In this document: positions 3,205-48,313 of the stretch, one piece after another | How positions within the stretch are numbered: position 1 is the first letter of the stretch | Layout: every line of letters begins with the position of its first letter | NCBI GenBank assembly: GCA_947650365.1 | Contig: OX393557.1 | Location: forward strand, 868,001-932,000 | Direction of reading: 5' to 3' | DNA length: 64,000 bases | Source of the DNA: Chamaelirium japonicum | Taxonomy: Eukaryota; Streptophyta; Magnoliopsida; Liliales; Melanthiaceae | Position numbers and translations under genes: made by a program | Notes under the pieces: generated by a model | Databases searched by the model: none | Told to the model about the DNA's origin: nothing | Seen by the model: only the letters and a program-made list of their open reading frames with translations

Positions 3205-5675
3205 GAATGAATTAGAATAGCTCGTACGAATGAATTAGAATGGATACATTCGTACGAATGAATTAGAATGGATACATTCGTGAGAATGAATTAGAATGGA
3301 TCGTACTAATGAATTAGAACGGATCGTACGAATAAATTAGAATAGCTTGTATGAATGAATTAGAATGGATACATTCGTATGAATGAATTAGAATGGAAAC
3401 ATTCGTGCGAATGAATTAGAATGGATCGTACGAATGAATTAGAATGGATCGTACGGACAAATTAGAATGGGTCGTACGAATGAATTAGAATAGCTTGTAC
3501 GAATGAATTAGAATAGCTTGTACAAATGAATTAGAATTGTTCATACGAATGAATTAGAATGGATCGTACGAATGAATTAGAATGGATACATTCTTGCGAA
3601 TAAATTAGAATGGATCGTACGAATGAATTAGAATGGCTGCATTCGTACGAATGAATTAGAATGGATCGTACGAATGAATTAGAATGGCTACATTCGTACG
3701 AATGAATTAGAAAAGCTATATTCATACGAATGAATTAGAATGGATCGTACGAATAAATAAAAATGGATCGTACGAATGAATTAGAATGGCTACATTCGTA
3801 CGAAAGAATTAGAATAGCTACATTCGTACGAATGAATTAGAATGAATCGTAGGAATGAATTAGAATGGTTCGTATGAATGAATTAGAATGGATCGTACGA
3901 ATGAATTAGAATGGATCGTACGAATGAATAAGAATAGCTCGTATGAATGAATTTGAATAGCTCGTATGAATGAATTAGAATTGTTCGTACGAAAGAATTA
4001 AAATGTATCGTACGAATGAATTAGAATGGATACATTCGTGCGAATGAATTAGAATGGATCGTATGAATGAATTAGAATGGATCGTACTAATGAATTAGAA
4101 TGGCTGCATTCGTATGAATGAATTAGAATAGATCGTATGAATGAAATAGAATGACTACATTTGTACGAATGAATTAGAATAGCTATATTCGTACGAATGA
4201 ATTAGAATGGATAATACGAATGAATAAGAATGGATCGTACGAATGAATTGGAATGGCTACATTCGTACGAATGAATTACAATAGCTGTATTCGTACGAAT
4301 GAATTAGAATGGATCGTACGAATGAATTAGAATGGCTACATTCGTACGAATGAATTAGAATGGCTATATTCGTACGAATGAATTAAAATGGCTATATTCG
4401 TACGAATGAATTAGAATGGATCGTACAATTGAATTAGAATATATACCTTCATATGAATGAATTATACTGGCTATATACGTACTAATGAATTAGAATGGCT
4501 ATATTCGTTTGTACAAATGAATTAGAATCGCAGCATTCATACGAATGAATTAGAATGGATCGTACGAATGAATTAGAATGGATCATACGAATGAATTAGA
4601 ATAGATACCTTCGTACGAATGAATTTGAATAGCTATATTTGTACGAATGAATTAGAATGGCTACATTCGTACGAATGAATTAGAATGGATCGTACAAATT
4701 AATTAGAATAGAACGTACGAATGAATTAGAATGGCTATATTCGTACGACTGAATTCATATGAATGAATTAGAATGGAATATATGAATGAATTAAAATGAC
4801 TCATACGAATGAATTAAAATGGCTACATTCGTACGAATGAATTAGAATAGATCGTACGAATGAATTTGAATGGATCGTACGAATGAATTAGAATGGCTCG
4901 TACGAATAAATTAGAATGGCTACATTCGTACGAATGAATTATAATGGATCATAGGAATGAATTAGAATGGATCGTAGGAATGAATTAGAATGGCTACAAT
5001 CTTACGAATGAATTAGAATGATTACCTTCGAACGAATAAATTAGAATGGATCGTACGAATGAATTAAAATGGATCATACGACTGAATTAGAATGGATACA
5101 TTCATTCATACGAATGAATTAGAATCGCTACATTCGTACGAATGAATTAGAATGGATCGTCCGAATGAATTAGAATGGATAGTACGAATGAATTAGAATG
5201 GCTACATTTGAACAAATGAATTAGAATGGATACATCTGTACGAATGAATTAGACTGGATCGTACGAATGAATTAGAATGGCTATATTCATACGAATGAAT
5301 TAGAATGGGTCGTACGAATGAATTAGAATGGCCATATTCATTCGTACGAATGAATTAGAATGGCTATATTCGTACGAATGAATTAGAATGGATACCATCG
5401 TACGAATGAATTGGAATGGCTATAATTGTATGAATGAATTAGAATGGATCGTATGAATGAATTAGAATGGATCGTACGAATGAATGAGAATGGCTGCATT
5501 CGTACAAATGAATTAGAATGGCTATATTTGTACAAATGAATTAGAATGGCAACAATCTAACGAATAAATTAAAATTGATACCTTCGAATGAATGAATTAG
5601 AATGGATCATATGAATGAATTAGAATGGATCGAACGAATGAATTAGAATGGATCGTATGAATGAATTAGAATATA
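3205..5675 (+). repeat. Satellite block A1, forward
   Basis: Starts after the CAAC of the junction word and ends at GAATATAGCCATTC, where the strand flips tail to tail inside a linker. Includes an open 51-bp (23+28) dimer pattern around 3531-3725. Confidence 0.93.
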
Positions 5676-6065
5676 GCCATTCTAATTCATTCGTATGAAT
5701 GTAGCCATTCTAATTTATTCTAACGATCCGTTCTAATTCATTCGTTCGAATATAGCCATTCTAATTCATTCGTACGAATGGTGCCATTCTAATTCATTAG
5801 TACTATCCATTCTAATTCATTTGTATGATCCATTCTAATTCATTCATATGAATATAGGCATTCTAATTCATTCATACGAATGTAGCCATTCTAATTCATT
5901 CGTACGATCTATTCTAATTCATTCATTCGAACAAATATAGCCATTCTACTTTATTCCTACGGATGTAGCCATTCTAATTTATTCTTATGAATGTGGCCAT
6001 TCTAATTCATTCGTACGATCTATTCTAATCCATTCGTACGAAGGTATCTATTCTAATTCATTCGT
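5676..6065 (-). repeat. Satellite block A2, reverse
   Basis: Reverse cores ATTCTAATTCATTC. Flips back at CATTCGTACAAATG, centred on GTAC at 6064-6067. Confidence 0.93.
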
Positions 6066-7677
6066 ACAAATGAATTAGAATGGATCGTACAAATGAATTA
6101 GAATGGCTATATTCGTACGAATAAATTAGATTGGATCATACGAATGAATTAGAATGGATCATATGAAAGAATTAGAATGGATTGTACGAATGAATTAGAA
6201 TAGCTCGTACGAACGAATTAATTCGTATGAATTAATTAGAATGGCTACTTTCGTATGAATGAATTAGAATGGATATATTCGTACGAATGAATTAGAATGG
6301 ATCATACAAATAAATTAGAATGGATCGTACAAATGAATTAGAATGGCTATATTCGTACGAGTGAATTAGAATGGATCGTATGAATGAATTAGAATAGTTA
6401 CATTCGTACAAAAAAATTAGAATGGATCGTACGAACAAATTAGAATGGATCGTACGAATGAATTAGAATAGATCGTACGAATGAATTAGAATGGATCGTG
6501 CGAATGAATTAGCATGGCTACATTCGTTCGTACGAATGAATTAGAATGGCTACCTTCCTACGAATGAATTAGAATAGGTCATAAGAAAGAATTAGAATGG
6601 CTATATTCGTACGAATGAATTAGAATGGCTATATTCGAACGAATAAACTAAATTGGATCGTACGAATGAATTAGAATGTATTATACGAATGAATTAGAAT
6701 GGATCATATGAATGAATTAGAATGGCTCGTACGAATGAATTAGAATGGCTCTTACGAATGAATTAAAATGGCTATATTCATTTGTATGAATGAATTAGAA
6801 TAGATCGTATGAATGAATTAGAATGGCTATATTCATACGAATGAATTAGAATGGCTACATTCATACGAATGAAATAGAATGGATCATACGAATGAATTAG
6901 AATGGCTACATTCATACGAAAAATTAGAATGGATCGCACGAATGAATTAGAATGCATCGTACGAATGAATTAGAATGTCTACATTCGAACGAATGAATTA
7001 GAATGGATCGTACGAATGAATTAGAATAGATCGTACAAGTGAATTAGAATGGATCGTACGAATAAATTAGAATTGCTCATACGAATGAATTAGAATGGCT
7101 CATATGAATGAATTAAAACAGCTACATTTATTCGTATGAATGAATTAGAATGGCTACATTTGTATGAATAAATTAGAATGGATCGTATGAATGAATTAGA
7201 ATGGCTACATTCGTACGAATGAATTAGAGTGGATCATACGAACGAATTAGAATGGCAACATTCGAACGAATGAATTAGAATGGATCATACGAATGAATTA
7301 GAATGGATCATACGAATGAATTAGAATGGCTATATTCATACGAATGATTAGAATGGCTACATTCATACGAATGAATTAGAATGGCTACATTCGTACGAAT
7401 GAATTAGAATGGATCGTACGAATTAATTATACTGGCTATATTCATATGAATGAATTAGAATGGCTACATTCATACAAATGAATTAGAATGGATCGTACGA
7501 ATGAATTAGAATGGCTACATTCATATAAATGAATTATAATGGCTATATTCGTATGAATGAATTAGAATGGATCGTACGAATGAAATAGAATATCTCGTAC
7601 GAATGAATTAGAATGGCTACCTCCGTACGAATGAATTAGAATGGCAATATTCGTACGAATTAATTAGAATGGATCGT
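6066..7677 (+). repeat. Satellite block A3, forward
   Basis: Ends at GGATCGTACGAATGTAGC. The flip is centred on GTAC at 7676-7679 and joins a short linker to a reversed long linker. Confidence 0.93.
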
Positions 7678-9677
7678 ACGAATGTAGCAATTCTAATTCA
7701 TTCAAACGAATGTAGCCATTCTAATTCATTCTTACGAATGTAGCCATTCTAATTCATTCGTACGATCCATTCATTCGTTCGAATGTTGCCACTCTAATTC
7801 ATTCGTTCGAAGGTATCCATTCTAATTCATTCGTTCGAATGTTGCCATTCTAATTCATTTGTACGATCCATTCTAATTCATTCGTACGAATATAGCCATT
7901 CTAATTCATTTATTCGAAGGTAGCAATTCTAATACATTCGTACGATCCATTCTAATTCATTCGTACGAATGTAGCCATTCTAATTTATTCATAAGAATGT
8001 AGCTATTCTAATTCATTTGTACGAGCAATTCTAATCATTCGTACGAATGTAGCCATTCTAATTCATTTGTACGAGCTATTCTAATTCATTCATACGAAGG
8101 TAGCAATTCTAATTCATTCGTATGATCCATTTTAATTAATTCGTACGAATATAGCCATTCTAATTCATTCGTACGAATTTTGCCATTCTAATTCATTTGT
8201 ACGATACATTCTAATTCATTCGTACGATCCATTCTAATTCATTCGTTCGAATGTTGCCATTCTAATCCATTCGTAAGAACCATTCTAATTCATTTATACG
8301 ATCCATTCTAATTCATTCTTACTAACAATGTCATTCTAATTTATTTGCACCATCCATTCTAATTCATTCGTACGAATATAGCCAATATAATTCATTAGTA
8401 CGAATGTAGCCATTCTAATTCATTCATACAATCCATCCTAATTCATTCTTTCGAATGTTGCCATTCTAATTCGTTTGTATGAACGAATGTTGCCATTCTA
8501 ATTCATTCATAGGAACAAATGTAGCCATTCTAATTCATTCGTACGAGCTATTCTAATTCGTTCATATGAATATAGCCATTCTAATACATTTGTACGTACG
8601 AATGTAGCCATTCTAATTCATTCGTAAGGATGTATCTATTCTAATTCATTCGTACGAATGTAGCCAGTATAATTCATTCGTACGATCCATTCTAATTCAT
8701 TCGTACAGATATATCCATTCTAATTCATTCATACAAATGTAGCCATTCTAATTCGAATGTATGAATATACCCATTCTAATTCATTCATACAATCCATTCT
8801 AATTCATTTGTACGGTCGAATGTAGCCATTCTAATTCATTCGTACGATCCATTCTAATTCATTCGTACGAATATCGCTATTCTAATTCATTCGTACAGAT
8901 GCAGCCATTCTAATTTATTCGTACGATCAATTCTAATTCATTCGTACGATCCTTTCTAATTCATTTGTATGATCCATTCTAATTCATTCGTAAGAGCCAT
9001 TCTAATTCATTCATACGAATGTAGCCATTCTAATTCATTCATACGAGCTATTCTAACTTATTTGTACGATTCATTCTAATTCATTCGTACGAATATAGCC
9101 ATTCTAATTCATTCGTACGAACGAATGTAGCCATTCTAATTCATTCGTATGAATGTAGCCATTCTAATCCATTCGTACTAATATAGCCATTCTAATTCAT
9201 TCGAACAAATGTAGCCATTCTAATTCATTTGTACGAATATAACCATTCTAATTCATTTGTACGATCCATTCCATTTCATTCATACGATCCATTCTAATTC
9301 ATTTGTACGAATATATCTATTCTAATTCATTCATACGAATGTAGCAATTCTAATTCATTTGTACGAATATAGCCATTCTAATTCATTCGTATGAACCATT
9401 CTAATTCATTCGTACGAAGGTATCTTTTCTAATTCATTCGTACGATCCATTCTAATTCTTTCTTACGACCCATTCTAATTCATTCGTTCGAATGTTGCCA
9501 TTCTAATTCATTCGTACGGATGTGGCCATACTAAATAATTCAATTGAATATTGCTATTCTAATTCATTCGTACGAATTTAGCCATTCTATTCATTCGTAC
9601 GATCCATTCTAATTCATTCGTACGAATAAAGCCATTCTAATTCATTCGTGTGAATATAGCCATTCTAATTCACTTGT
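7678..9677 (-). repeat. Satellite block A4, reverse
   Basis: Two-kilobase reverse block. Its right junction CACTTGTCTGTGTGAATA is one of the few flips not centred on a GTAC-like palindrome. Confidence 0.93.
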
Positions 9678-12213
9678 CTGTGTGAATAAATTAGAATGGC
9701 TCTTACGAATGAATTAGAATGGATCGTTCGAATGAAATAGAATGGATCGTACAAATGAATTAGAATCGATCGTACGAATGAATTAGAATCACCACATTCG
9801 AACGAATGAATTATAATGGCTACATTCGTACGAATGAATTAGAATGGATCGTACGAATGAATTAGAATGGATCGTACAAATGAATTAGAATGGCTAAATT
9901 CGTACGAATGAATTAGAATGGATCGTATGAATGAATTAGAATGGATCGCATGAATGAATTACAATGGATCGTACGAATGAATTAGAATGGCTATATTCGT
10001 ACTAATGAATTAGAATGGATCGTAGGAACAAATTAGAATAGCTACACTCGTACGAATGAATTGGAATGGCTATATTGGAACGAATGAATTAGAATGGCTC
10101 ATACGAAAGAATTAGACTGGCTACATTCGTACGAATGAATTAGAATAGATCATAAGAAAGAATTTGAATGGCTACATTCGTATGATTGAATTAGAATAGC
10201 TCGTACGAATAAATTAGAATGGATCGTACAAATGAATTAGAATGGCTGGCTATATTCATACGAATCAATTAGAATGGCAACATTCGAACGAATGAATTAG
10301 AATAGATCGTACGAATAAATTAGAATAGATACCTTCGTACGAATGAATTAGAATGGTAACAATCGTACGAATGAATTAGAATGGGTTCATTCATACGAAT
10401 AAATTAGAATGGATCATACGAATGAATTGGAATGGGTCGTACGAATGAATTAGAATGGCTCATACGAATGAATTAGAATGGATCGTACGAATGAATTAGA
10501 ATGGATCGTACGAATGAATTATAATGGCTACATTCATACAAATGAATTAGAATAGCATTTACGAATGAATTAGAATGGATCGTACGAATGAATCAGAATC
10601 GCTACATTCATATGAATGAATTAGAATGGTACTTACGAATGAATTAGAATGGCTACATTCGTACGAATGAATTAGAAAGGCTACATTCGTACAAATAAAT
10701 TAGAATGGCTACATTCGTTCGAATGAATTAGAATGGATCGTACGAATGAATTAGAATGGATCTTCCGAATGAATTAGAATGGCTACATACCTTCATACGA
10801 ATGAATTAGATTGGATCGTACAAAAGAATTAGAATGGATGTACAAATGAATTAGAATGGATCATACGAATGAATTAGAATGGTTACCATCAAACCAATGA
10901 ATTAGAAAGGATCATACGAATGAATTAGAATGGCTATATTCGTACGAATGAGTACGAATGAATTAGAATAGATACCTTCGTATGACTGAATTAGAATAGT
11001 TCGTACGAATGAATTAGAATAGATTGTACAAATGAATTAGAATGGCTCATACGAATGAATTAGAATGGCTATATTCATACGAATGAATTTGACTGGATAC
11101 CTTCGGATGAATGAATTAGAATAGCTCGAACAAATGAACTAGAATGGCTATATCCATACAAATGAATTATAATGGCCACCTTTGTACGAATGAATTAGAA
11201 TGGCAATATTCATACGAATGAATTAGAATAGCTCATATGAATGAATTCGAATGGATCGTACAAATAAATAAGATTGGCTATATTCGAACGAATGAATTAG
11301 AATGGATCATACAAATGAATTAGAATGGATCGTATGAATGAATTAGATTGGATCGTATCAATGAAATAGAATGGCTACATTTGTACGAATGAATTAGAAT
11401 AGCTCTTACGAATGAATTAGAATGGATCATATGAATGAATTATAATGGATCATATGAATTAATTAGAATGGCTATACTCGTTCGTACTAATGAATTAGAA
11501 TGGCTACATTCGTACAAATGAATTAGAATGGAACGTACGAAAGAATTAGAATGGCTACATTCGTACGAATGAATTAGAATGGCTACATTCGTTCGTACGA
11601 ATGAATTAGAATGGCTACATTCGTACGAATGAATTAGAATGTCTATATTCGTACGAATGAATTAGAATGGCTACATTCGTACGAATGAATTAGAATGGAT
11701 CGTAGGAACGAATTAGAATAGCTATATTCGTAAGAAAGGATTAGAATGGCTATATTCATTCGTACTAATGAATTAGAATGTCTATATTCATATGAATGAA
11801 TTAGAATGGACCGTACGAATGAATTAGAATGTCTTTTTTTGTTCAAATGAATTAGAATGGATCGTACGAATAAATTAGAATGGCTATATTCATATGAATG
11901 AATTAGAATAGATACCTTCGTACGAATGAATTAGAATGGCTACATTGGTACGAGTGAATTAGAATGGCTACATGAATTAGAATGGCTATATTCGTTCGTA
12001 CAAATGAACTAGAATGGCTATATTCGTATGAATGAATTAGAATGGCTACATTCGAACGAATGAATTAGAATGGCTACATTCGTACGAATGAATAATAATG
12101 GATCGTACAAATAAATTAGAATGGATCGTACGAATGAATTAGAATAGATACCTTCGTATGAATGTATTAGAATTGCTACATTCGAACGAATGAATTAGAA
12201 TAGATACCTTCGT
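9678..12213 (+). repeat. Satellite block A5, forward
   Basis: Right junction ACCTTCGTACGATCC is centred on GTAC (12212-12215) and joins a long to a reversed short linker. Contains the translated-satellite frame at 11643-11846. Confidence 0.93.
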
Positions 12214-12900
12214 ACGATCCATTCTAATTCATTCATACAATCGATTCTAATTAATTTGTACGATCCATTCTAATTCATTCATACAAACCATTCTAATTCA
12301 TTCGTACGAATATAGCTATTCTAATTCATTCGTAAGATCCATTCTAATTTATTCGTATAAATGTAGCTATTCTAATTCTTTTGTACGAATGTTGTCATTC
12401 TAATTCATTCGTATGATCCATTCTAATTCATTCGTACGATCCATTCTAATTCATTCATGTGAATGTAGCTATTCGAATTCATTCATACGAATGTAGCCAT
12501 TCTAATTCATTCGTACGATCCACACTAATTCATTCGTACGATCCATTCTAATTCATTCATTTAAATATTGACATTCTAATTCATTCGTACGAATGTTGCC
12601 ATTCTAATTTATTAGTAAGTGCAATTCTAATTCATTCGTACGATCCATTATAATTCATTCGTTCGAATGTAGCTATTGTAATTCATTTGTACGAATGTAG
12701 CAATTCTAATTCATTCGTACAAATATAGTCATTCTAATTCATTCGTACGATCCATTCTATTTTATTCGTACGATCCATTCTTATTCATTCGTATGAATGT
12801 ACCCATTCTAATTTATTCATACGAATGTAGCCATTCTAATTTATTCGTATGAATATAGCCTTTCTAATTCATTCGTACGATCCATTCTAATACATTCATA
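12214..12900 (-). repeat. Satellite block A6, reverse
   Basis: Ends in ACATTCATACGAATGT, a near-palindrome with ATAC in place of GTAC at the centre. Confidence 0.9.
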
Positions 12901-13087
12901 CGAATGTATTAGAATGGATCGTATGAATAAATTAAAATGGATCGTATGAAAGAATTAGAATGCCTACATTCATACGAATGAATTAGAATTGTTACATTCG
13001 TAGGAATGAATTAGAATGGCTACATTCGTACGAATGAATTAGAATGACTACATTCGCACAAATGAATTAGAATGGCTATATTCGTAC
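12901..13087 (+). repeat. Satellite block A7, forward
   Basis: Short block of about seven units. The right junction ATTCGTACGAATGAATGTAG keeps a partial core before flipping. Confidence 0.9.
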
Positions 13088-14108
13088 GAATGAATGTAGC
13101 CATTCTAATTCATTCGTATGAGCTATTCTAATTCATTAGTTTCAAGGTATCCATTCTAATTCATTCATACCAATGTAACCATTCTAATTCATTCGGACGA
13201 ATGTAGCCATTCTAATTCTTTCGTACGATCCATTCTAATTCGTTCGTACGATCCATTCTAATTCATTCGTATGAATGTAGCCATTCTAATTCAATCGTAC
13301 GATCCATTCTAATACATTTAAACGAAGATATCCATTCTAATTCATTCGTACGAACGAATGTAGCCATTCTAATTCATTCGTAACAAAGCCATTATAATTC
13401 ATTCGTACGATCCATTCTAATTCATTCGTACGAATGTAGCCATTCTAACTCGATCATACGAATGTAGCTATTCTAATTCATTCTACGAATATAGCCATTC
13501 TAATTAATTCGTACAAATATAGCCATTCTAATTAGAATGTAGCCACATCGAGGCGATACGGTCGTGCTCGGATCCATTCTAATTCATTCGTTCAAATGTA
13601 GCCATTCTAATTCATTCGTATGAATATAGCAATTCTAATTCATTCGTACGATCCATTCTAATTCATTCATATGAGCCATTCTAATTCATTCATATGAGCC
13701 ATTCTAATTTTTTGTACGATCCATTCTAATCCATTCATACGATCCATTCTAATTCATTCGTACGAATATAGCCATTCCAATTCATTCATACGAATGTAGC
13801 AATTCTAATTCATTCGTATGAATATATGTAGCCATTCTAATTCATTTTTACAAATATAGCCATTCTAATTCATTCGTACGATCCATTCGAATTCTTTCGT
13901 ACGAACTAATATAGCCATTCCAATTTATTTGTACGATCTATTCTAATTTATTTGTACGAGCCATTCTAATTCATTCGTACGAATGTAGCAATTCTAATTC
14001 ATTTGTACGATCCATTCTAATTCATTCGTATGATCCATTCTAATTCATTCGTACGAATGCAGCTATTCTAATTCATTCGTACGAAGGTATCCATTCTAAT
14101 TCATTCGT
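13088..14108 (-). repeat. Satellite block A8, reverse
   Basis: Interrupted at 13544-13570 by a unique non-satellite island. Right junction ATTCATTCGTACGAATGAAT is a perfect head-to-head palindrome on GTAC (14107-14110). Confidence 0.92.
13544..13570. other. Unique GC-richer island inside the satellite
   Basis: CACATCGAGGCGATACGG followed by TCGTGCTCG interrupts the array between a truncated reverse unit that folds back (CTAATTAGAATGTAGC) and GGATCC. It matches no satellite variant and no other part of the window that I can find. Confidence 0.75.
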
Positions 14109-14350
14109 ACGAATGAATTAGATTGGCTATATTCGTACGAATGAATTAGAATGGCTACATCGGTACGAATGAATTAGAATGGCTATATTCATACCAATGA
14201 ATTAGACTGGATCGTACGAATAAATTAGAATGGATCGTACGAATAAATTAGAATAGCTACATTCATACGAATGAATTAGAAAGGCTACATCCGGACGAAT
14301 GAATTGGAATGGCTATATTCGTACGAATGAATTAGAATGGCTTCATTCGT
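14109..14350 (+). repeat. Satellite block A9, forward
   Basis: About nine units. Right junction CTTCATTCGTACGATCC is centred on GTAC (14349-14352), the same form as the junction at 21683. Confidence 0.92.
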
Positions 14351-14679
14351 ACGATCCATTCTAATTCATTCGTACGGATGTCGCCATTCTAATTCATTAG
14401 TACAAATATAGCTATTTTAATTCATTCATACGATCAATGCTAATTCATTCGTACGATCCATTCTAATTTATTCGTACGAATATAGCCATTCTAAGTCATT
14501 CATACGATCCATTCTAATTCATTCGTATGATCCATTCTAATTCATTCGTACGAATGTAGCTATTCAAATTCATTCGTATAAATGTAGCCATTCTAATTCA
14601 TTCGTACGATCCATTCCAATTCATTCGTACGATCCATTCTAATTCATTTGTACAAATGTAGCCATTCTAATTTATTTGT
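14351..14679 (-). repeat. Satellite block A10, reverse
   Basis: Ends at TTATTTGTACGAATGAA, centred on GTAC at 14678-14681. Confidence 0.92.
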
Positions 14680-15892
14680 ACGAATGAATTAGAATTGCTA
14701 AATTCGTACGAATGAATTCAAATGGCTATATTCGTACGAATGAATTAGAATAGTTACATTCGAATGAATGAATTAGAATGGATAGTACGAATGAATTAGA
14801 ATGGATCATATGAATGAATTAGAATGGCTACATTCAAGCAAATGAGGTAGAATAACTCGTACGAATGAATTAGAATGGATTGTACGAATGAATTAAAATG
14901 GATACATTCGAACGAATGAATTAGAATGGCTATATTCATACGAATGAATTAGAATGGATCATACGAATGAATTAGAATTGATCGTACAAATGAATTAGAA
15001 TGGATCGTACGAATGAATTAGAATAGATATATTCGTACGAATGAACTAGAATGGGTCGTACGAATGAATTAGAATGGTTCTTACGAATGAATTAGAATGG
15101 ATCGTACGAATTAATTAGAATGGCTACATTCGTACGAATGAATTAGAATGGCTATATTCGTACGAATGAATTAGAATAGCTCGTACGATTGAATTATAAT
15201 AGCTACATTCGTACGAATGAATTAGAATGGCTATATTCGTATGAATGAATTAGAATGGTTCGTATAAATGAATTAGAATGGCTACATTCGTACGAATGAT
15301 TAGAATGGAACATACGAATGAATTAGAATAGATCGTACGAATGAATAGAATGGCTACATTCGTCCATACGAATGAATTAGAATAGCTCGTATGAATGAAT
15401 TAGAATGGCTATATTCGAACGAGTGAATTAGAATGGCTACATTCGTACGAATGAATTAAAATGGATCGTGTGAATGAATTAGAATGGCTACATTCGTACG
15501 AATAAATTACAATGCATACCTTCAAACGAATGAATTAGAATTGCTATATTTGTACGAATGAATTAGAATGGATCGTATGAATGAATTAGATTGGCTATAC
15601 TTGTATGAATGAATTAGAATGGCTACATTCATACGAATGAATTAGAATGGATCGTACGAATGAATTAGAATGGATCGTACGAATGAATTAGAATGGATAC
15701 CTTCGAACGAATGAATTAGAATGGTTCATAAGAAAGAATTAGAATGGCTACATTCATACGAATGAATTGGAATGGCTATATTCGTACGAATGAATTAGAA
15801 TGGCTACATTCGAACGAATGAATTAGAAGGTCTATATTCGTACGAATGAATTAGAATAGTGCATACGAATGAATTAGAATCGCTACATTCGT
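14680..15892 (+). repeat. Satellite block A11, forward
   Basis: Right junction CTACATTCGTACGAATGTAA joins two long linkers tail to tail as a palindrome centred on GTAC (15891-15894). Confidence 0.93.
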
Positions 15893-30350: not shown

Positions 30351-30359
30351 TGGCTACAA

Positions 30360-35192: not shown

Positions 35193-35294
35193 AATGACTA
35201 GACCTAGATTGTTTCATATATAAATTGGACTGTTAGAAAATGAATATCTTACTGTTTCATATATAAATCAAATTATTTCATATATAAATCATAT

Positions 35295-35384
<90 letters not shown>

Positions 35385-35522
35385 TATTGTTTTATATTGT
35401 TTCATATATAAATCAAATTGTTTCATATTGTTTCATATGTAAATCATACTGTCTCATATTAAATCAAATTGTTTTATATTTGTATCATATTATTTCGTAT
35501 AGAAAAATATTACTGCTTTCAG
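35193..35522. other. Intergenic spacer between the two CACTA genes
   Basis: AT-rich, with repeated words TTTCATATATAAATC and TTGTTTCATAT on both sides of the AT microsatellite. It probably contains the promoter of the second gene, but no element can be singled out. Confidence 0.6.
35301..35382. repeat. (AT)n microsatellite, about 41 dinucleotides
   Basis: Uninterrupted AT alternation. The Tyr-Ile open frame across it is an artefact. Purity suggests recent expansion compared with the decayed genes beside it. Confidence 0.97.
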
Positions 35523-36915: not shown

Positions 36916-36932
36916 ACTCTAAATTGGTCAAT
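36888..36932 (+). repeat. 23-bp tandem at the gene end that opens the 181-bp array
   Basis: GCTCAGACCTAAATTGGTCA plus AT (36888-36909) is followed at once by GCTTAGACTCTAAATTGGTC plus AAT (36910-36932). The first copy is coding (last codons of the Transposase_24 gene). The second contains the stop codon and is the start of the 181-bp monomer. Confidence 0.85.
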
Positions 36933-39900
36933 CGGAGGGTAAATTGTTCAAATATCTAATTAGGACTTGCTCGCAAGTTCGAAATGTCAGATGCGATCCG
37001 ATGATGATCCGATCGAATCCAAACCAATTTCAAATCCAAAACACGCTAACTTGTGATTTTCTAATGCTTCGACTCTAAATTGGTCAATCAGAGGGTAAAT
37101 TGTTAAAATATCTAATTAAGACTTGCTGGCAAGTCCGAAATATGAAAAATCATCCAAGTTTGAAATATCGGATGCAATCTGATGACGATCCAATCGAATC
37201 CAAACCAATTTTAAAACCGAAACACCCTAACTTACTTAGACTCTAAATTGGTCAATCGGAGGGTAAATTGTTAAAATATCTAGTTAGAACTCGCTTGCAA
37301 CTCCGAAATACGAAATAATTCTAAGTATAAATTATCGGATGCTGATCCGATGACGATCCGATCGAATCCAAACCAATTTCAAATCCGAAACATGCAAACT
37401 TATGGTTTTTCAACGGTTAGACTCTACATTGGTCAATCGGAGGGTAAATTATTAAAATATCCAAAAATAACTCGCTCGCAAGTCCAAAATATGAAATAAT
37501 TTTAAGTATGAATTATTGGATGCTAATCTGATGACGATCTGATCGAATCCAAACCAATTTCAAATCCGAAACACGCAAACTTATGATTTTTCAATGCTTA
37601 AACTCTAAATTGGTCAATCGAAGGGTAAATTGTTAAAATATCCAATTAGAACTCGCTCGTAAGTCCGAAATATGAAATAATTCCAAGTAAAAATTATCGG
37701 ATGTCGATCCGATGACTATCTGATCAAATCCTAACCAATTTCAAATCCAAAACACACTAACTTATGATTTTTTAACGCTTAGACTCTAAATTGGTCAATC
37801 GGAGGGTAAATTGTTAAAATATCTAATTAGAACTCACTCGTAAGTCCGAAATATGAAATAATTCTAAGTATGAATTATCGGATGTCGATCCGATGATGAT
37901 CCAAACCAATTTCAACTTTGAAACACGCTAACTTATGATTTTTCAACGCTTAGACTCTAAATTGGTCAATCGGAGGATAAATTATTAAAATATCCAATTA
38001 GAACACGCTCGCAAGTCCGAAATATGAAATAATTCCAATTACAAATTATCAGATGTCGATCCGATAACGATCCAATCGAATCCAAACCAATTTCAAATCC
38101 GAAACACGCTAACTTATGATTTTTCAATGCTTAGACTCTAAATTGGTCAATCGGAGGGTAAATTGTCAAAATATCCAATTAGAACTCGCTCACAAGTTCA
38201 AAATACAAAATAATTCCAAGTACGAATTATCGGATGCCGATCCGATGATTATCTGATCGAATCCAAACCAATTTCAAATCTGAAACACGATAACTTATGA
38301 TTTTAAAACGCTTAGACTCTAAATTGATCAATTGGAGGGTAAATTGTTAAAATATCCAATTAGAACTCACTCACAATTCCGAAATATGAAATAATTCCAA
38401 GTACAAATTATCGGCTGCCGATCCGATGACGATCCGTTCGAATCCAAACCAATTTCAAATCTGAAACACGCTAACATAAGATTTTTCAACGCTTAGACTC
38501 TAAATTGGTCAATCAGAGGATAAATTATTAAAATATCCAATTAGAACTTACTCGCAAGTCCGAAATACAAAATAATTCTAAGTATGAATTATCAGATGCC
38601 GATCTGATGATGATCCGATCGAATCCAAACTAATTTAAAATCCGAAACACGCTAACTTAAGATTTTTCAATGCTTAGATTCTAAATTGGTCAATCGAAGG
38701 GTAAATAGTTAAAATATCCAATTAGAACTCGCTCGCAAGTACGAAATACAAAATAATTCCAAGTATAAATTATCGAATGTCAATCCGATGACAATCTGAT
38801 CGAATCCAAACCAATTTCAAATCCAAAACGCTCTGAGTTATGATTTTTCAATGCTTAGACTCTAAATCGGTTAATCAAAGGGTAAATTGTTAAAATATCC
38901 AATTAGAACTCACTCTCAAGTCCGAAATATGAAATATTTCCAAGTATAAATTATCGGATGCTGATCCGATGATGATCCGATAGAATCCAAATCAATTTCA
39001 AATCCGAAACACATTAACTTATGATTTTTCAACACTTAGACTCTAAATTGATCAATCGGAGGGTAAATTGTTAAAATATCCAATTAGAACTAGCTCGCAA
39101 GTCCAAAATATGAAATAATTCCAAGTACAAATTATCGGATGCTGATCCGATGACGATCCGATCGAATCCAAACAAATTTCAAATCCAAAACACGCTAACT
39201 GATGATTTTTCAATGCTTAGACTCTAAATTGGTCAATCGAAGAATAAATTGTTAAAATATCCAATTAGAACTCGGTCGCAAGTCCAAAATACGAAATAAT
39301 TCCAAGTACAAATTATCGGATGTCGATCCGATGACGATCCAATCGAATACAAACCAATTTCAAATCCGAAACACGCTAACGTATAATTTTTCAACGCTTA
39401 GACTCTAAATTGGTCAATCGGAAGGTAAATTGTTAAAATATCCAATTAGAACTCGCTCGCAAGTCCAAAATATGAAATAATTCCAAGTACAAACTATCGG
39501 ATGCCGATCCAATGATGATCCGATCGAATCTAAACGAATTTCAAATCCGAAACACGCTAACTTATGATTTTTCAATGCTTAGACTCTAAATTGGTCAATC
39601 ACAGGGTAAATTGTTAAAATATCCAATTAGAACTCACTCGCAAGTTCGAAATACAAAATAATTCCAAGTACGAATTATCGGATACCAATCCTATAACGAT
39701 CTGATCGAATCCAAACCAATTTCAAATTCGAAACACGCTAACTTATGATTTTTCAACGCTTAGACTCTAAATTGGTCAATCGGAGGGTAAATTGTTTAAA
39801 TATCCAATTAGAACTCGCTCATAAGTTTGAAATACGAAATAATTCCAAGTACGAATTATCGGATGCTGATCTGATGACGATTCGATTGAATCCAAACCAA

Positions 39901-40304
39901 TTTCAAATCCGAAACACGCTAGCTTATGATTTTTCAACGCTTTTGACTCTAGATTGGTCAATCAGAGGGTAGATTGTTAAAATATCCAATTAGAACTTGC
40001 TTACAAGTCCAAAATACAAAATAATTCCAAGTACGAATTATCGGATGCTGATCCGATGATGATCCGATCGAATCCAAACCAATTTCAAATCCGAAACACG
40101 CTAACTTATGATTTTTCAACGCTTAGACTCTAAATTGGTCAACCGGAGGGTAAATTGTGAAAATATCCAATTAGAACTCGCTCACAAGTCCGTAATACGA
40201 AATAATTCCAAGTACGAATTATCAGCGGCATCTGATAACGATCCGATCGAATCCAAACCAATTTCAAATCCGAAACATGCTAACTTATGATTTTTCAATA
40301 CTTA
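36910..40304 (+). repeat. 181-bp tandem repeat array, left part (about 19 copies)
   Basis: The anchor CTTAGACTCTAAATTGGTC recurs at 36911, 37067, 37235, 37416, 37597, 37778, 37949, 38130, 38311, 38492, 38673, 38854, 39035, 39216, 39397, 39578, 39759, 39940 (as CTTTTGACTC), 40122 and 40301. Spacing is 181 bp for most, with shorter units at the start (156, 168) and one of 171. Each unit also carries TAAATTGTTAAAATATCC, GAAATAATTCCAAGTA, ATTATCGGATG, a GATCCGATGACGATCCGATC palindromic stretch and AACACGCTAACTTATGATTT. Short open frames repeated at 39745 and 40108 are by-products. Confidence 0.97.
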
Positions 40305-42321
40305 GGGTGTGTTTGGCATTGGTTTTGGAGGCCTAGTTTTGCGTCAAAACTAGTTTCGCTTGCCAAACTGGTTTTGGTATAAGATTTTAGTGCGTTTGGG
40401 ATTCGATTAGAAAATTGGTTTTTCAAAACCAAAACTAGAAAATCATCAAAACCCAAAAGCAGAAATTTTCTGCTTTTGGGTTCTTCTTTTGGGTTCTTGA
40501 GGCAAGAAGGCAAAACAAAAATTAAAAGAAATTATTATGAATAACATATATGTTGTAGAGTGAAACTATTGTAAAGAGAAAAAATTAAAACCGGAAGAAT
40601 ATATACATATCATATTATAGAGAGAGAAAATTATTATGGAGAGAATACTTTAGAGAAAATATAGGATAGATATAAAAATATTATAGAGAGAGAAAATTCT
40701 AAAGAAAAGAATATAGATAGAGAGTATTAAATAAATAAATATGTAATGAGAGAAAATATTGAAGATAAAAAATATTATAGAGAAGAAATATTATAGAGAG
40801 AAAATATTATCAAAAAATAAAATATTATAGAGAGAGAAAATATTATAGAAAGAGAATATTTTAGAGAGAAAATATTATAGAAAGATAATATTTTAGAGAA
40901 AGAATATGTTATAGAGTAGTTTAGATAGAAAATATTATAGAGAGAGAAAAAAACATAGAGAGGAGAAAAATATTAATAATAGCGAGAGAAGATATCATAG
41001 TGAGAGAAAATATAATAGAAATAGAATATTTTAGAGAGAGAAAATATTATGAAAAGAGAATATTTTAGAGAGAGAAATGTTATAGAGTGAAAACTTTATA
41101 GAAATAGGATATTTTAGAGAGAGAAAATATTATAGAAAGAAATATTTTATAGAGATAAAATATTATAGAAAGAGAATATTTTAGAGAGAGAATATATTAT
41201 AGAGTAAAATTTAGAAAAGAAATATTATAAAGAGAGAAAATAACTTAGAGGGAAGAAAAATATTAATTATAGAGAGAGAAGATATCATAGAGAGAGAAAA
41301 TATTCAAGAGAGAAAATATTATAGAAAGAATATTTTAGAGAAATAAAATAGTATACAAAGAGAATATTTTAGAGAGAGAAATGTTGTAGAGAGAAAACAT
41401 TGTAGAATATGATATTTTAAAGAGAAAATTTTATAGAAAGAGTATTTTAGAGAGAAAAAATATTATAGAGAGAACATTTTAGAAAGATAAAATATTGTAG
41501 TGACGAAAATAATATAAAGAGGAAAAAAATATTATACAGAGGAAATATCATAGAGAAAAAATGATATAGAAAAAAAATATTGCTGAAAGAGATCGAAGAT
41601 ATTGTAGATAGAAAAAATGTTATAGAAAGATAATATTTTATAAAGAGAAAATATTGTAAAGAGAAAATATTGTAGAAAGATAATATTATAGAGAGAAAAA
41701 ATATTGTACAAAAAAAATATTTTAGAGAGAGAAAATATTGTAAGGACAATATATTAAAGAGCAAATATTTAAAAGAGAAATTGAATGAGAGAAAATATTA
41801 TAGAGAGAAAATATCATAGAGAGAAAAAATGGGGTAGAGAGAGGAGAAATAATATTGTAGAGAGAAAATATTAGAAAAAGTGTTATAGAGAGAATTTTTT
41901 TAGAGAGAGAAAATCTTATAGCAAGAGAATATTTTAGAGAGAGAAAATATTATAGAATGAGTATATTTTAGAGAGAAAATATTGTAGAGGGATAAAATAT
42001 TGTAGAAGGAGAGTATTTTAGATAGAAAATGACGTAGTGAGAAGAGAAAATATTATAGAGAGAAAATATCATAGAGATAATATTGGGGAGAAAATATTGT
42101 AGAAAGAGAAAATATCGTAGAGAGAAAATATTGGAGAGAACATTTTAGAAAAATAACTGCAAAACTAGTTTTAGGCTCAAAACTGGTTTTCTTGCCAAAT
42201 ACTCAAATGTTGATAATTCTATAACTGGTTTTTGATAAGCTAAAACTGGTTTTGCACAAAACTAGTTCTTGGTATTCCAAAATCAAAACCTAAAATTTTA
42301 AAACCAATGCCAAACGCACCC
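40305..42321 (+). mobile_element. PIF/Harbinger-like non-autonomous element nested in the 181-bp array
   Basis: Terminal inverted repeats GGGTGTGTTTGGCATTGGTT (40305) and AACCAATGCCAAACGCACCC (ending 42321) match with one difference over at least 20 bp. The flanks duplicate TTA (40302-40304 and 42322-42324), restoring CTTAGACTC of the 181-bp monomer when removed. A TTA duplication and G-rich ends are typical of PIF/Harbinger and Tourist-type MITEs. Terminal arms of about 200 bp carry repeated AAACTAGTTTT and AAACTGGTTTT words and AACCCAAAAGCAGAAATTTT folding on AATTTTCTGCTTTTGGGTT. No transposase is present. At 2.0 kb it is long for a MITE because of its interior repeat. Confidence 0.9.
40530..42150 (+). 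repeat. Purine/AT-rich low-complexity expansion inside the PIF/Harbinger-like element
   Basis: About 1.6 kb built from shifting copies of AGAGAGAAAATATTATAG and AAAGAGAATATTTTAG, almost free of C on this strand. Periodicity is loose (roughly 16-34 bp). The minus-strand Phe/Leu/Ile-rich open frame near 41447-41764 is an artefact of composition. Confidence 0.93.
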
Positions 42322-43619
42322 TTAGACTCTAAATTGGTCAATCGGAGGGTAAATTGTTAAAATATCCAATTAGAACTCACTCACAAGTTCAAAATACAAA
42401 ATAATTCCATGTACAAATTATCAAAAGCCAATCCGATGACGATCCGATCAAATCCAAACCAATTTCAAATCCGAAACACGCTTACTTATGATTTTTCAAC
42501 ACTTAGACTCTAAATTGGTCAATCAGAGGGTAAATTGTTAAAATATCCAATTAGAACTCACTCGTAAGTCTGAAATACGAAATAATTCCAAATACAAATT
42601 ATCAGATGCCGATCCAATGACGATCCAAACCTAATTCAAATCCGAAACATGCTAACTTATGATTTTTCAACGCTTAGACTCTAAATTGGTCAATCGGAGG
42701 GTAAATTGTTAAAATATTCAATTAGAACTCGCTCGCAAATCCAAAATACAAAATAATTCCAAGTACAAATTATCAGATGCCGATCCGATCGAATCCAAAC
42801 CAATTTTAAATCCGAAACAAGCTAATTTATGATTTTTCAACGCTTAGACTCTAAATTGGTCAATCGGAGGGTAACATGTTAAAATATCCAATTAAAACTC
42901 GTTTGCAAGTCCGAAATACGAAATAATTCTAAGTACAAATTATCAGATGTTGATCAGATAGCGATCCGATCGAATCCAAATTAATTTCAAATTCAAAACA
43001 CGCTAACTTATGATTTTTCAATGCTTAGACTCTAAATTGGTCAATCGGAGGGTAGATTGTTAAAATATCCAATTAGAACACGCTAGCAAGTCCGAAATAT
43101 AAAATAATTCCATGTACGAATTATTGGATGCCGATCCGATGACAATCCGATCAAATCCAAACCAATTTCAAATCCGAAACACGCTAACTTATGATTTTTC
43201 AACGCTTAGACTCTAAATTGGTCAATCAGAGGGTAAATTGTTAAAATATCCAATTACAACTCGCTCGTAAGTCCGAAATATAAAATAATTCCTAGTACAA
43301 ATTATCGGATGCCGATCCGATGACGATCCAATCGAATCCAAACCAATTTCAAATCTGAAACACCCTAACTTATGATTTTTCAACGCTTAGACTCTAAATT
43401 GGTCAATCGATCGGAGGGTAAATTGTTAAAATATCCAATTAGAACTCACTCGCAAGTCCGAAATACGAAATAATTCCAAGTACTAATTATCGGATGCCTA
43501 TCCGATGATGATCCGATTGAATCCAAACCAATTTCAAATCTGAAACACGCTAACTTATGATTTTTCAACGCTTAGACTCTAAATTGGTCAATCGGAGGGT
43601 AAATTAGTAAATCAGAGGG
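42322..43619 (+). repeat. 181-bp tandem repeat array, right part (about 7 copies)
   Basis: Continuation of the array after the nested element. The CTTAGACTC anchor is at 42321 (reconstituted by TTA), 42502, 42673, 42843, 43024, 43205, 43386 and 43571. One unit carries a 4-bp duplication (CAATCGATCGG near 43412). The array stops at GGGTAAATTAGTAAATCAGA near 43600, where the right subterminal region begins. Confidence 0.96.
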
Positions 43620-44008
43620 CAATAATCTATTTTAATTTTTTTAATTATTTATATATTACTGATGGAAATTATGCTTCCGTCGGAAATATATAACGTATTA
43701 CCGACGGTAAGACCCTCAGCCGTCAGTATTAACCTTATATATTGCCGACGGAAGGTAATTGTCAATCGGTAATAATCTATTATATTTTTAATTAAATATT
43801 CAAATATTACTGACGGGCACTAAATATCCGTCGGTATTAATGATTAATATCGATGGCTATTTTGTGTCTGTTGCCGATTTCTCCCGATGCCTTTTTTCCA
43901 GACAGACTAGCGACGGAAATGGCTTCCGTCGCGATAAATCTTTACCGACAGAAAAGTAACTTTTTCGACAGATATATTCCATCGGTAAAAACTATTTTTT
44001 TTGTCGTG
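43620..44008 (+). repeat. CACTA right subterminal repeats and TIR
   Basis: Carries ATTACCGACGG, ATTGCCGACGG, TTACTGACGG, CCGTCGGTATT, CCGTCAGTATT and CATCGGTAAAAA, the same core as the left end, and finishes in TTTTTTTTGTCGTG. The T-to-G change in the fourth TIR base (CACGA for CACTA) is the only mismatch in the first ten. Confidence 0.92.
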
Positions 44009-44149
44009 AATAAGAATAGATCGTACGAATGAATTAGAATAGCTACCTTCATACGAATGAATTAGAATGGATACCTTCGTACGAATGAATTAGAATGGCT
44101 ACATTCATACGAACGAATTATAATGGATCGTACGAATGAATTAGAATGG
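44009..44149 (+). repeat. Satellite block B1, forward
   Basis: Continues block A22. Ends tail to tail at TTAGAATGGCCATTCTAA, a perfect palindrome centred on GGCC (44148-44151), with both linkers lost. Confidence 0.93.
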
Positions 44150-45110
44150 CCATTCTAATTCATTCGTACGATCCATTGTAATTCTTTTGTTCGAATGTTG
44201 CCATTCTAATTCATTCGTACGCACGAATATAGACATTCTAATTCATTTGTTCCAAGGTAAACATTCTAATTCATTCGTACGAATGTAGCCATTATAATTC
44301 ATTCGTACGATCCATTCTAATTTATTCGTACGAATATATCCATTCTAAATCATTCATATCCATTCTAATTCATTCGTACGATATATTCTAATTCATTCGT
44401 ACGATCCATTCTAATTCATTTGTACGAATGTAGCCATTCTAATTCATTTGTACGATCCATTCTAATTCATTCGTACGATCCATTCAAATTTATTCATTCG
44501 AAAGTAGCCATTCTAATTCAATCATCCAATCCATTCTAATTCATTCGTACGAATATTGCTATTCTAATTCATTCGTACAAATATAGCTATTCTAATTCAT
44601 TTGTACGATCTATTCTAATTAATTCGTACGAATATAGCCATTCTAATTCATTTGTATGAATATAGCCATTCTAATTCATTCGTACAATCCATTCTAATTC
44701 ATTCGTATGATCCAATCTAATTCATTCGTACGAGTATAGCCATTCTAATTCATTCGTACGAATGTAGCTATTCTAATTCATTCGTACGGATCCATTCTAA
44801 TTCATTCGTACGATCCATTCTAATTCATTCATAAGAGCCATTCTACTTCATTGGTACGATCCATTCTAATCCATTCGTATGATCCATTCTAATTTATTCG
44901 TAAGTGCCATTCTAATTCAATCGTACGGTCCATTCTAATTCATTTGTACGAAGGTATTTATTCTAATTCATTCGTACGAATATAGCTATTCTAATTCATT
45001 CGTACGAATATAGCCATTCTAATTCTTTCCTACAATCTATTCTAATTCATTCGTATGGGTGTAGCTATTCTAATTCATTCGTACCAATGTTGCCATTCTA
45101 ATTCATTCGT
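44150..45110 (-). repeat. Satellite block B2, reverse
   Basis: Ends at TTCATTCGTACGAATAAA on GTAC (45109-45112). Confidence 0.92.
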
Positions 45111-45924
45111 ACGAATAAATTAGAATGGATCCTAGGAATGAATTAAAATCGATCGTACGAATAAATTAGAATGGATTGCACGAATGAATTAGAAGAGATA
45201 CCTTCGTACGAATGAATTAAAAGGGCTATATTCGTACAAATGAATTAGAATGGCTATATCCGGATGAATGGATTAGAATGAATCGTACGAATGAATTAAA
45301 ATGGCTATATTCGTACGAATGAATTAGAATAGCTATATTCGTACGAATGAATTAGAATAGATACCTTCGTACGAATGAATTAGAATGGATCATACGAATG
45401 AATTAGAATAGCTCTTACGAATGAATTAGAATGGATCGTACGAATGAATTAGAATGGATAGTACGAATGAATTAGAATAGCTATATTCGTACGAATGAAT
45501 TATAATGGCTATACTCGTACGAATGAATTAGAATGGATCGTACAAATGAATTAGAATGAATCGTACGAATGAATTAGAATAGCTATATCCGTACGAATGA
45601 ATTAGAATGGCTATATTTGTACGAATAAATTAGAATAGCTCTTACGAATGAATTACAATGGCCATATTCGTACGAATGAATTAGAATAGAAACCTTCGTA
45701 CGAATAAATTAGAAAGGATCGTACTAATGAATTAGAATGGATCGTACGAATGTATTAGAATGGCTATATTCGTACCAATGAATTAGAATGGATGGTACGA
45801 ATGAATTAGAATAGATCGTACGAATGTATTAGAGTGCCTATATTCGTACGAATGAATTAGAATGGATGGTACAAATGAATTAGAATAGATCGTATCAATG
45901 AATTAGAATGGGTCGTACGAATGA
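45111..45924 (+). repeat. Satellite block B3, forward
   Basis: Contains a partly duplicated stretch (units with GGATGGTACGAATG at about 45790 and 45866). Right junction GAATGAAGCTTTTCTAATTC is centred on AAGCTT. Confidence 0.92.
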
Positions 45925-47102
45925 AGCTTTTCTAATTCATTCGTTCGAAGGTAACCATTCTAATTCATTCGTACGAATATTGGCATTCTAATTCATTTGT
46001 ACAATCCATTAAAATTCATTTGTACGAATGAATGTAGCCATTCTAATTCATTCATACGAATGTAGCCATTCTAATTCATTCATACGAACGAAGATAGCCA
46101 TTCTAATTCATTCGTATGAATATAGCCATTCTAATTCATTCGTTTGAATGTATCTATTCTAATTCATTCGTACGAATATTGCCATTCTAATTCATTCATT
46201 CGATCCATTCTAATTCATTCGTACAAAGTATTCTAATTTATTCGTACAATCCATTCTAATTTATTCGTACGAATATAGCCATTCTAATGCATTAGTATGA
46301 ATATTGACATTCTAATACATTCGTACGAATATAGCCATTCTAATTCAATCATACGATCCATTCTAATTCATTCGTATGAATAAATGTAGCCATTCTAATT
46401 CATTCGTACGAATGAAAGTAGCTATTCTAATTCATTCATATGCTCCATTCTAATTCATTCGTACGAATGTAGCCATTCTAATTCATTCGTACGAATATAG
46501 CAATTCTAATTCATTCATACGAATGTAGCCATTCTAATTCATTCGTACGAATGTAGCCATTCTAATTCATTTGTATGATCCATTCTAATTCATTCGTACG
46601 ATCCATACTAATTCATTCATACGATCCATTCTAATTCATTCGTACGAATGTAGGCATTCTAATTCATTCGTACGATCCATTCTAATTCATTCGTACGAAT
46701 GTAGCCATTCTAATTCATTCATACGAACGAATGTAGCCATTCTAATTCATTCGTACAAATATAGCCATTCTAATTCATTCGTATGAAGGTATCCATTCTA
46801 ATTCATTCGTACAAATATAGCCATTATAATTTATTCGTACGATCCATTCTAATTCATTCGTACGAATGTAGCCATTCTAATTCATTCGTATGATCCATTC
46901 TAATTCATTCGTACGAATGTAGCCATTCTAATTCATTCGTACAAACGAATGTAGCCATTCTAATTCGTTCGTACGAATGTAGCCATTCTAATTGATTCAT
47001 ACGAATATAACTATTCTAATTTATTCATACGAAGGTAGCCATTCTAATTCAGTCGTATGAGCTATTCTAATTCATTTGTACGATCCATTCTAATTCATTC
47101 AT
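45925..47102 (-). repeat. Satellite block B4, reverse
   Basis: Right junction TTCATTCATCGTACGAATGA, next to GTAC (47104-47107) with a short duplication. Confidence 0.92.
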
Positions 47103-48187
47103 CGTACGAATGAATTAGAATGGCTACATTCGTACAAATGAATTAGAGTGGATCGTATGGATGAATTAGAACGGCTATATTCGTACGAATGAATTAGAAT
47201 GGGTAAATTCGTACGAATGAATTAGAATGGCTCATACGAATGAATTAGAATGAATCATACGAATGAATTAGAATGGATCGTACGAATGAATTAGAATAGA
47301 TATCTTCGTACGAATGAATTATACTAGCTATATTCGTACGAATGAATTAGAAGGGATCGTACGAATGAATTAGAATGGATCGTACGAATAAATTAAAATA
47401 AATACCTTTGTAGGAATTAATTATACTAGCTATATTCGTACAAATGAATTAGAATAGATCGTACGAATGAATTAAAATGGATCGTACGAATGAATTAGAA
47501 TAGCTCGTACGAATGAATTAGAATGGATCGAACGAATGAATTAGAATGGCTACATTCGTACGAATGAATTAGAATGGGTCATCCAAATGAATTAGAATGG
47601 ATCGTACGAGTGAATTAGAATGGATCGTGAATGAATTAGAATCGATACCTTCGAATGAATAAATTAGAATGGATCGTACTAATGAATTTGAATGGATCAT
47701 ACGAATGAATTAGAATAGATACCTTCATACGAATGAATTAGAATGGATGGTACGAATGAATTAGAATGGCAATATTTGTACGAATGAATTAGAATGGATC
47801 GTACGAATGAATTAGAATAGCTACATCCGTACGAATGAATTAGAATGGATCATAGGAATGAATTAGAATGGCTACATTCGTTCGTACAAATGAATTAGAA
47901 TGGCTACATTCATATGAATGAATTAGAATGGATCGTACGAATGAATTAGAATGGATCGTACGAATGAATTAGAATGGCTACATTCGTATAAATGAATTAG
48001 AATGGATCGTACGAATAAATTAGAGTGGATCGTATGAATGAATTAGAATAGCTCGTACGAATGAATTAGAATGGATCATACGAATGAATTAAAATGGATC
48101 ATAAGAATGGATCGTTTGAATGAATTAGAATGGCTATATTCGTACGAATGAATTAAAATGGATCGTACGGATGAATTAAAATAGATT
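47103..48187 (+). repeat. Satellite block B5, forward
   Basis: Ends at AATAGATTGTAGCCATTC, a flip inside a truncated linker without a GTAC centre. Confidence 0.92.
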
Positions 48188-48313
48188 GTAGCCATTCTAA
48201 TTCATTCGTACGACCCATTCTAATTCATTCATACGATCTATTCTAATTCATTCGTACGATCCATTCTAATTCATTAGTACGATCCATTTTAATTCATTCG
48301 TACGAATATATGT
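48188..48313 (-). repeat. Satellite block B6, reverse
   Basis: Five reversed units directly against the copia LTR. Its orientation is opposite to the satellite on the other side of the element (62991 onward). Confidence 0.9.

Follow-up and report, generated by a model that had tools for sequence, protein, structure and literature searches.

The window analysed here (contig C9, positions 868001-932000; 64,000 nucleotides) carries a Chio-type minisatellite that changes orientation 29 times, mostly on a palindromic CGTACG dyad within its own repeat unit. Most of these flips keep the unit phase. As a set they are best fitted by joints with about 7 shared base pairs, connect mixed unit types and have arms that do not mirror one another. 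We consider it probable, with some reserve, that they arose when opposite strands of different units were joined through microhomology at the dyad. The pivot rule is not general for the satellite, being weaker in the other sampled arrays except one, L005.

Satellite array and its identity

About 31 kb of the window consists of the 23/28-bp minisatellite, as delimited by hidden Markov model (HMM) segmentation and a scan for the unit core, in four places (window coordinates):

3203..29237, no strand assigned: array A, Chio-type minisatellite of 23-bp (S), 28-bp (L) and some 32-bp (X) units, with 24 of the 29 flips (HMM segmentation, core scan)
44007..48308, no strand assigned: array B, which is array A continued past a CACTA element, with AAT flanks on both sides of the element and 5 of the 29 flips
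about 62991..63518, plus strand: satellite piece beyond a long terminal repeat (LTR) element, in plus orientation only
1913-2005, no strand given: isolated four-unit satellite stretch

The core GAATGAATTAGAATGG is found in 1,189 units at no more than 4 mismatches, 483 of them exact. When 1,150 linkers were typed on a 16-base core, 522 had 7 bases (S), 532 had 12 (L) and 55 had 16 (X). The most frequent S linker is ATCGTAC (219), and the L linkers are headed by CTACATTCGTAC (87) and CTATATTCGTAC (65); an intact GTAC closes 606 of the 1,109 ordinary linkers.

According to the available text of Kuo et al. 2023 (PMC10264360), Chio1 and Chio2 of Chionographis japonica have intermingled 23- and 28-bp units in arrays of mixed forward and reverse orientation, with an 8-bp dyad, in a genome of 12 chromosome scaffolds (N50 81.11 Mb). 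The window array likewise has monomers of 23 and 28 bp, with 5 bp missing from the shorter, together with mixed orientation and an 8-bp dyad. Exact core copies number 6.41 million across the 1.519-Gb, 3,253-contig genome, in keeping with an abundant satellite. The window consensus contains TCGTACGA, which we take to be the published dyad (its published letters sit in a figure; TTCGTACGA is given as text). Judged from sequence, the identification of the array as the Chio holocentromere satellite of Chionographis japonica is firm, because unit sizes, mixed orientation, dyad and assembly numbers all match.

Most orientation changes keep the unit phase

Exactly 29 orientation changes lie between 3203 and 48313, the same number that the earlier note had counted in arrays A and B; 14 are head-to-head and 15 tail-to-tail. 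They are as follows (core scan; no strand assigned):

5675..5676 (listed at 5659): tail-to-tail, out of phase, joined via GAAT
6064..6067: head-to-head, pivot GTAC
7676..7679: tail-to-tail, S to L, pivot GTAC
9676..9683 (listed at 9660): head-to-head, out of phase, with filler-like bases
12212..12215: tail-to-tail, L to S, pivot GTAC
12898..12901: head-to-head, pivot ATAC
13084..13087: tail-to-tail, 24-nt spacer read as L to X, pivot GTAC
14107..14110: head-to-head, pivot GTAC
14349..14352: tail-to-tail, L to S, pivot GTAC
14678..14681: head-to-head, pivot GTAC
15891..15894: tail-to-tail, L to L, pivot GTAC
20075..20078: head-to-head, pivot GAAC
20103..20106: tail-to-tail, L to S, pivot GTAC
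20149..20152: head-to-head, pivot GTAC, likely copy of the 20075 flip
20349..20350 (listed at 20333): tail-to-tail, out of phase, joined via GAAT
20436..20439: head-to-head, pivot GAAA
21682..21685: tail-to-tail, L to S, pivot GTAC, possibly copy of the 14349 flip
22460..22463: head-to-head, pivot GTAC
23325..23328: tail-to-tail, 24-nt spacer read as L to X (alternatively two L units end to end), pivot ATAC
23826..23842 (listed at 23810): head-to-head, out of phase
27045..27048: tail-to-tail, S to L, pivot ATAC
27475..27478: head-to-head, pivot GTAC
28395..28398: tail-to-tail, L to L, pivot GTAC
28672..28675: head-to-head, pivot ATAT
44149..44150 (listed at 44134): tail-to-tail, out of phase, abutting cores
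45109..45112: head-to-head, pivot GTAC
45915..45918: tail-to-tail, S to L, pivot GTAC
47101..47107 (listed at 47085): head-to-head, out of phase, 43-base junction string also on contig C16
48185..48191 (listed at 48169): tail-to-tail, out of phase

The spacer between the cores is 4 nt in 11 of the 14 head-to-head flips, the remaining three having 7, 8 and 17. Tail-to-tail spacers measure 15 nt in seven flips, 20 in two, 24 in two, 2 in two, and 0 and 7 in one each; none measures 10. Unit phase on the CGTACG dyad is kept in 22 of 29 flips (11/14 head-to-head, 11/15 tail-to-tail), a count that includes the two 24-nt spacers only if one side is read as a 32-bp unit and otherwise falls to 20. The proposal that the palindrome serves as a phase-keeping pivot is thus true for the window array. 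Seven flips depart from the unit phase (5659, 9660, 20333, 23810, 44134, 47085 and 48169), and two others resemble copies (20133 and 21658). Phase was defined by core-to-core spacing, which does not depend on where the breakpoint is drawn inside the palindrome; the caveat of palindrome ambiguity is answered by this definition. We preferred it to an HMM with a 32-bp state, which shifted some junctions by 4 bases.

All 14 positions for which a GTAC pivot had been named do carry GTAC at the flip, and overall 16 of the 22 in-phase flips pivot on the intact tetranucleotide. The one-base variants ATAC, GAAC and ATAT that had also been reported are all seen. Transitions affect 439 of 4,176 C/G consensus sites in S units and 709 of 5,320 in L units, compared with 81 of 7,830 and 111 of 9,576 A/T sites, and part of the L figure is a genuine C/T subtype in the linker. 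The ATAC and ATAT pivots look like what is expected when the two CpGs of CGTACG decay from C to T, and the spectrum agrees with the high CpG methylation of Chio given in the available text of PMC10264360; such decay does not explain the GAAC and GAAA pivots.

Random joins do not reproduce the flips

As a null model, random pieces of the window's own runs were joined so that they share k bases. The 4-nt head-to-head spacer appears in 2.9% of simulated joins at k=0, 30% at k=4, 57% at k=7 and 82% at k=10, and its occurrence in 11 of 14 flips is highly improbable under random joining (p = 4e-15). Tail-to-tail spacers of 10, 15, 20 or 24 nt arise in 13.8% of random joins (p = 3e-7 for the observed set). 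The comparison with random placement that the earlier note had called for favours the pivot, and, judged by the simulated joins, the length of the palindrome does not by chance account for the flips.

The likelihood of all 29 flips is best at k=7 (logL -55.2, against -56.4 at k=6, -55.8 at k=8 and -100.6 at k=0), meaning that the window flips share more bases than random joins do. Leaving out the two likely copied flips again gives k=7. The out-of-phase tail-to-tail flips with a 2-nt spacer via GAAT (2/15) belong to a class favoured by joins with 3 to 6 shared bases. In the consensus, the stretch shared by the two strands at the pivot is 8 bp for a pair of S units, 11 for S with L and 14 for a pair of L units; since the CGTACG dyad is the longest such stretch, joins within this subfamily would usually come out in phase and reversed.

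Unit types and arms across the flips

A fold-back on one palindrome joins a unit to itself, so that tail-to-tail junctions would have to be S to S or L to L. Of the 11 phased tail-to-tail junctions, seven join S with L in either order, two are read as L to X, two are L to L and none is S to S; unlike types are therefore joined in 9/11 (7/9 without the two 24-nt spacers). The S/L order is not mirrored across the flips, with agreement at 94 of 188 positions compared with 0.499 +/- 0.037 for shuffled partners. Alignment of 300-bp arms, for flips with clear arms, gave similar values within and between flips (0.505 and 0.519 for 10 tail-to-tail, 0.578 and 0.586 for 8 head-to-head). The unlike unit types, together with the unmirrored arms, speak against single-unit fold-back.

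The window array is old and unhomogenised. Exact 40-mers are shared by same-run, same-direction and opposite-direction pairs in proportions of 0.062, 0.451 and 0.487, as compared with 0.063, 0.449 and 0.489 for all pairs, and the exact repeats found within runs are up to 82 bp long. Linker and core variants are unclustered, with 28 of 304 and 20 of 246 neighbours within 10 units against 26.6 and 20.3 after shuffling. The corresponding variants are clustered in L005 (74/125 against 59.6; 31/71 against 24.6), L003 shows clustering of cores only, and L001 shows none. The S/L order in the window is near random, with a weak lag-2 signal (r = -0.128, z = -3.9); S/L words of 6 units are repeated slightly more often than expected (3,235 against 2,874 +/- 129).

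A rare subfamily and the other arrays

Unlike the published Chio, the long unit of the window often has the linker CTACATTCGTAC; other sampled arrays have ATACATTCGTGC. From the published wording "5-bp deletion and 1-bp substitution" we infer that ATACATTCGTGC is the main Chio2 long-unit linker; the window holds 1 exact 29-mer of this form compared with 39 of the CTAC/GTAC form. The CTACATTCGTAC long unit is rare, with 1,518 exact 29-mers genome-wide including the 39 in the window, and none in 34 other fetched loci carrying the ATACATTCGTGC form (31 from one C1 stretch, some overlapping). On these sequence grounds the window is assigned to a rare, decayed subfamily.

Genome-wide, 66 matches to head-to-head flips of this subfamily were found, or 62 distinct places after merging four seen twice. 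Twenty-six of the 62 are in phase (12-nt spacer, at most 2 mismatches) compared with 3.0% of random joins; they span 20 contig/1-Mb bins, and some are re-amplified or allelic, so that p = 1.7e-23 overstates their independence. A doubled GTACGTAC junction is present in 9 more of the 62, compared with 3.5% at random. These nine lie on C2, C7, C10, C59, C322 and C3015, one of them as GTACATAC; they resemble two unit ends joined blunt and may be copies of one event.

Elsewhere the pattern is variable. L005 is the only other sampled array without weakening (in phase 3/5 head-to-head, 3/6 tail-to-tail); in-phase flips amount to 0/4 and 0/4 in L003, and to 0/1 tail-to-tail in L016. In the C1 megabase array, 10 head-to-head and 25 tail-to-tail flips are in phase among the first 100 listed of each, with spacer length and letters read by eye. 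Flip junctions at C1:1.37-2.44 Mb recur with identical letters, e.g. ATCGTGCACGAATGTAT and ATTAGCACGATCCATGCTAAT, and these flips seem to have been amplified together with their surroundings. Strict matching across the genome gave 38,564 tail-to-tail matches and 59,239 head-to-head matches, the latter for all spacers up to 30 with 12-letter flanks; the in-phase head-to-head matches number 14,675 with 11-letter flanks, at most about one quarter. A universal GTAC rule is ruled out by the weaker or absent pattern in C1, L001 and L003. From the consensus the subfamily would be expected to stand out, because its long unit gives the strands 14 shared bases at the pivot, compared with 8 between two S units.

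The 43-base junction string at window 47085 recurs at C16:911085-911127, and the junction string at C9:949012 is also found on C16 (980181). Contig C16 may be a second haplotype of the window region.

Discussion

Junctions produced by microhomology-mediated end joining, microhomology-mediated break-induced replication or fork stalling and template switching typically have a few to about 10 shared bases, orientation changes and occasional filler. The difference here is that the shared bases form a palindrome within the repeat, which yields a phased inversion inside the array. We propose that a break or stalled fork at the CGTACG dyad would start the event, and that the plus strand of one unit would then be joined to the minus strand of a different unit through a short strand-shared stretch. 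Joining by microhomology-mediated end joining or template switching would keep the unit phase and reverse the direction. The flips fit a join at this putative hairpin site. Two-ended inversion, one-ended template switching and insertion of a reversed circle would leave the same junctions. The earlier note had suggested fold-back template switching or pairing between palindromes: pairing between palindromes of different units fits the data, but folding on a single palindrome does not (2/11 like types; 94/188 mirrored). Its claim that the satellite thereby spreads in both directions goes further than the analysis.

Several results weigh against the proposed joining. L001 (C9:858001-868000), just across an assembly gap from the window, has 0 of 12 head-to-head flips in phase and 8 of 11 tail-to-tail, and the consensus does not explain the low shared sequence of the C1 flips (best k = 0 after deduplication). 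A single k is a simplification even in the window, as the best k is about 9 when the head-to-head flips are fitted by themselves and about 5 for the tail-to-tail flips. Short-context deduplication lowers the best k to 5 in the window (11 flips left), 2 in L001, 3 to 4 in L005 and 0 in C1; it fuses all in-phase flips into one class and is thus biased against the rule, and our main conclusion does not rest on it. The flip at 7680 has arms more alike than all 18 of its control pairs, and, given the near-random S/L order, later reshuffling could have wiped out mirrored arms.

A particular form of this joining is two-ended inversion, in which the dyads of two direct copies cross over or are end-joined and the block between them is turned round; every such event leaves one tail-to-tail and one head-to-head flip. 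The window agrees with what this form predicts: unit types that differ across the junction, unmirrored arms, and phase kept at either end. The asymmetry of L001 would be unexpected from a clean exchange at the dyad, and we regard this form as possible, though not the one we would favour.

Fold-back, in which one strand folds at its own palindrome and serves as its own template to give an inverted duplication centred on GTAC, appears improbable. The pivot is indeed palindromic, and a hairpin between adjacent monomers has been predicted for the published 8-bp dyad (available text of PMC10264360). The two L to L junctions are compatible with it, and the arms at 7680 are unusually alike, though that junction is S to L. 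Nevertheless, most phased tail-to-tail flips join unlike units, which is impossible by folding one unit; the unit order is unmirrored, and the two arms of a flip are on average as similar to each other as arms of different flips.

It is very unlikely that the flips are assembly or read artefacts, such as fold-back chimeric reads or collapsed repeats. The array does lie within a repeat, a gap of N occupies window 251-750, and the flips are read here from the assembly. However, the published assembly was built by hifiasm from PacBio HiFi reads at 58.5x, and mixed orientation is itself published (available text of PMC10264360) and contrasted with the sister genus (available text of PMC12722358). 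The mirrored arms expected of fold-back chimeras are absent on average, the substitutions are mostly C-to-T and G-to-A, as in methylated DNA rather than sequencing error, and one junction string of the window is repeated on contig C16.

Cutting of the dyad by a site-specific nuclease or recombinase is scarcely credible: the strong focus on one 4-8 bp site in the subfamily and the doubled GTACGTAC junctions (9/62, possibly copies of one event) would suit it, but flips that are out of phase are joined through different shared words, GAAT for example, the C1 array has the same dyad in its commonest linker with flips mostly elsewhere among the junctions listed, and the sister genus has TTCGTACGA yet single-orientation arrays (available text of PMC12722358).

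The satellite of the sister genus, Chama of Chamaelirium luteum, is described in the available text of PMC12722358 as a 60-bp centromere satellite with the 9-bp TTCGTACGA, in arrays that are consistently oriented and homogeneous, unlike the mixed-orientation Chio. Since Chama arrays have TTCGTACGA and yet keep one orientation, the dyad alone does not cause flipping. The same authors suggest that TTCGTACGA might form hairpins, a known fork-collapsing structure, promoting ectopic repair, and they regard it as unknown how centromere units came to be distributed along the whole chromosome. The dyad-focused flips of one old subfamily, with about 7 bp shared and no fold-back arms, constitute sequence evidence for part of this idea; the weaker pattern in other arrays limits its reach and counts among the objections above.

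The satellite, the dyad and the mixed orientation are already published. The available texts of PMC10264360 and PMC12722358, supplements and figures aside, give no description of flip position within the unit; nor were the 7-bp estimate, the case against fold-back or the rare subfamily found there or among the text-search matches listed, and satellite words sought in paper texts matched unrelated papers only.

Under the proposed joining, the orientation flips are a record of past joins. A broader version, which we find doubtful, holds that the dyad common to the centromere satellites of both genera actively promotes rearrangement: repair there would allow the polymerase to switch from unit to unit on both strands, and serial template switching would have built the Chio arrays, randomised unit order and direction together and spread the holocentromere. 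Three features of the window array are compatible with it as possible traces of that single process, namely S/L order close to random, neighbours that are no more similar than other units, and flips in phase.

Transposons and flanking features

Two transposons interrupt the array:

29238..44006, plus strand: CACTA-type transposon in a plus-oriented unit of the array; AAT 3-bp repeat at both ends; Pfam hits Transpos_assoc, Transposase_21 and DUF4218
48309..62990, plus strand: LTR retrotransposon; LTRs 94.0% identical over 2204 bp; imperfect target duplication GAATA/GAATG

We take the first to be of the CACTA type from its CACTA terminus, alongside the Pfam hits. It contains a 181-bp tandem repeat of about 25 copies at window 36990-40305 and 42321-43605, interrupted by an AGAGA-rich tract, and a short interstitial telomere-like run of TTTAGG variants at 30296-30349. 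The ends of the LTR element were placed by us, and its primer-binding site is a presumptive one. Satellite units before the LTR element are in minus orientation and those after it in plus; the element apparently landed in a further out-of-phase head-to-head flip, joined via GAATG and hidden since, which would predate the insertion.

The satellite starts at window 1880-2005 and 3150-3260 have about 23 bp upstream in common (GAATGCCCAGTGACTTnTCGCAA) and a near-identical first unit, as if the four-unit copy and the long array were derived from one duplicated junction.

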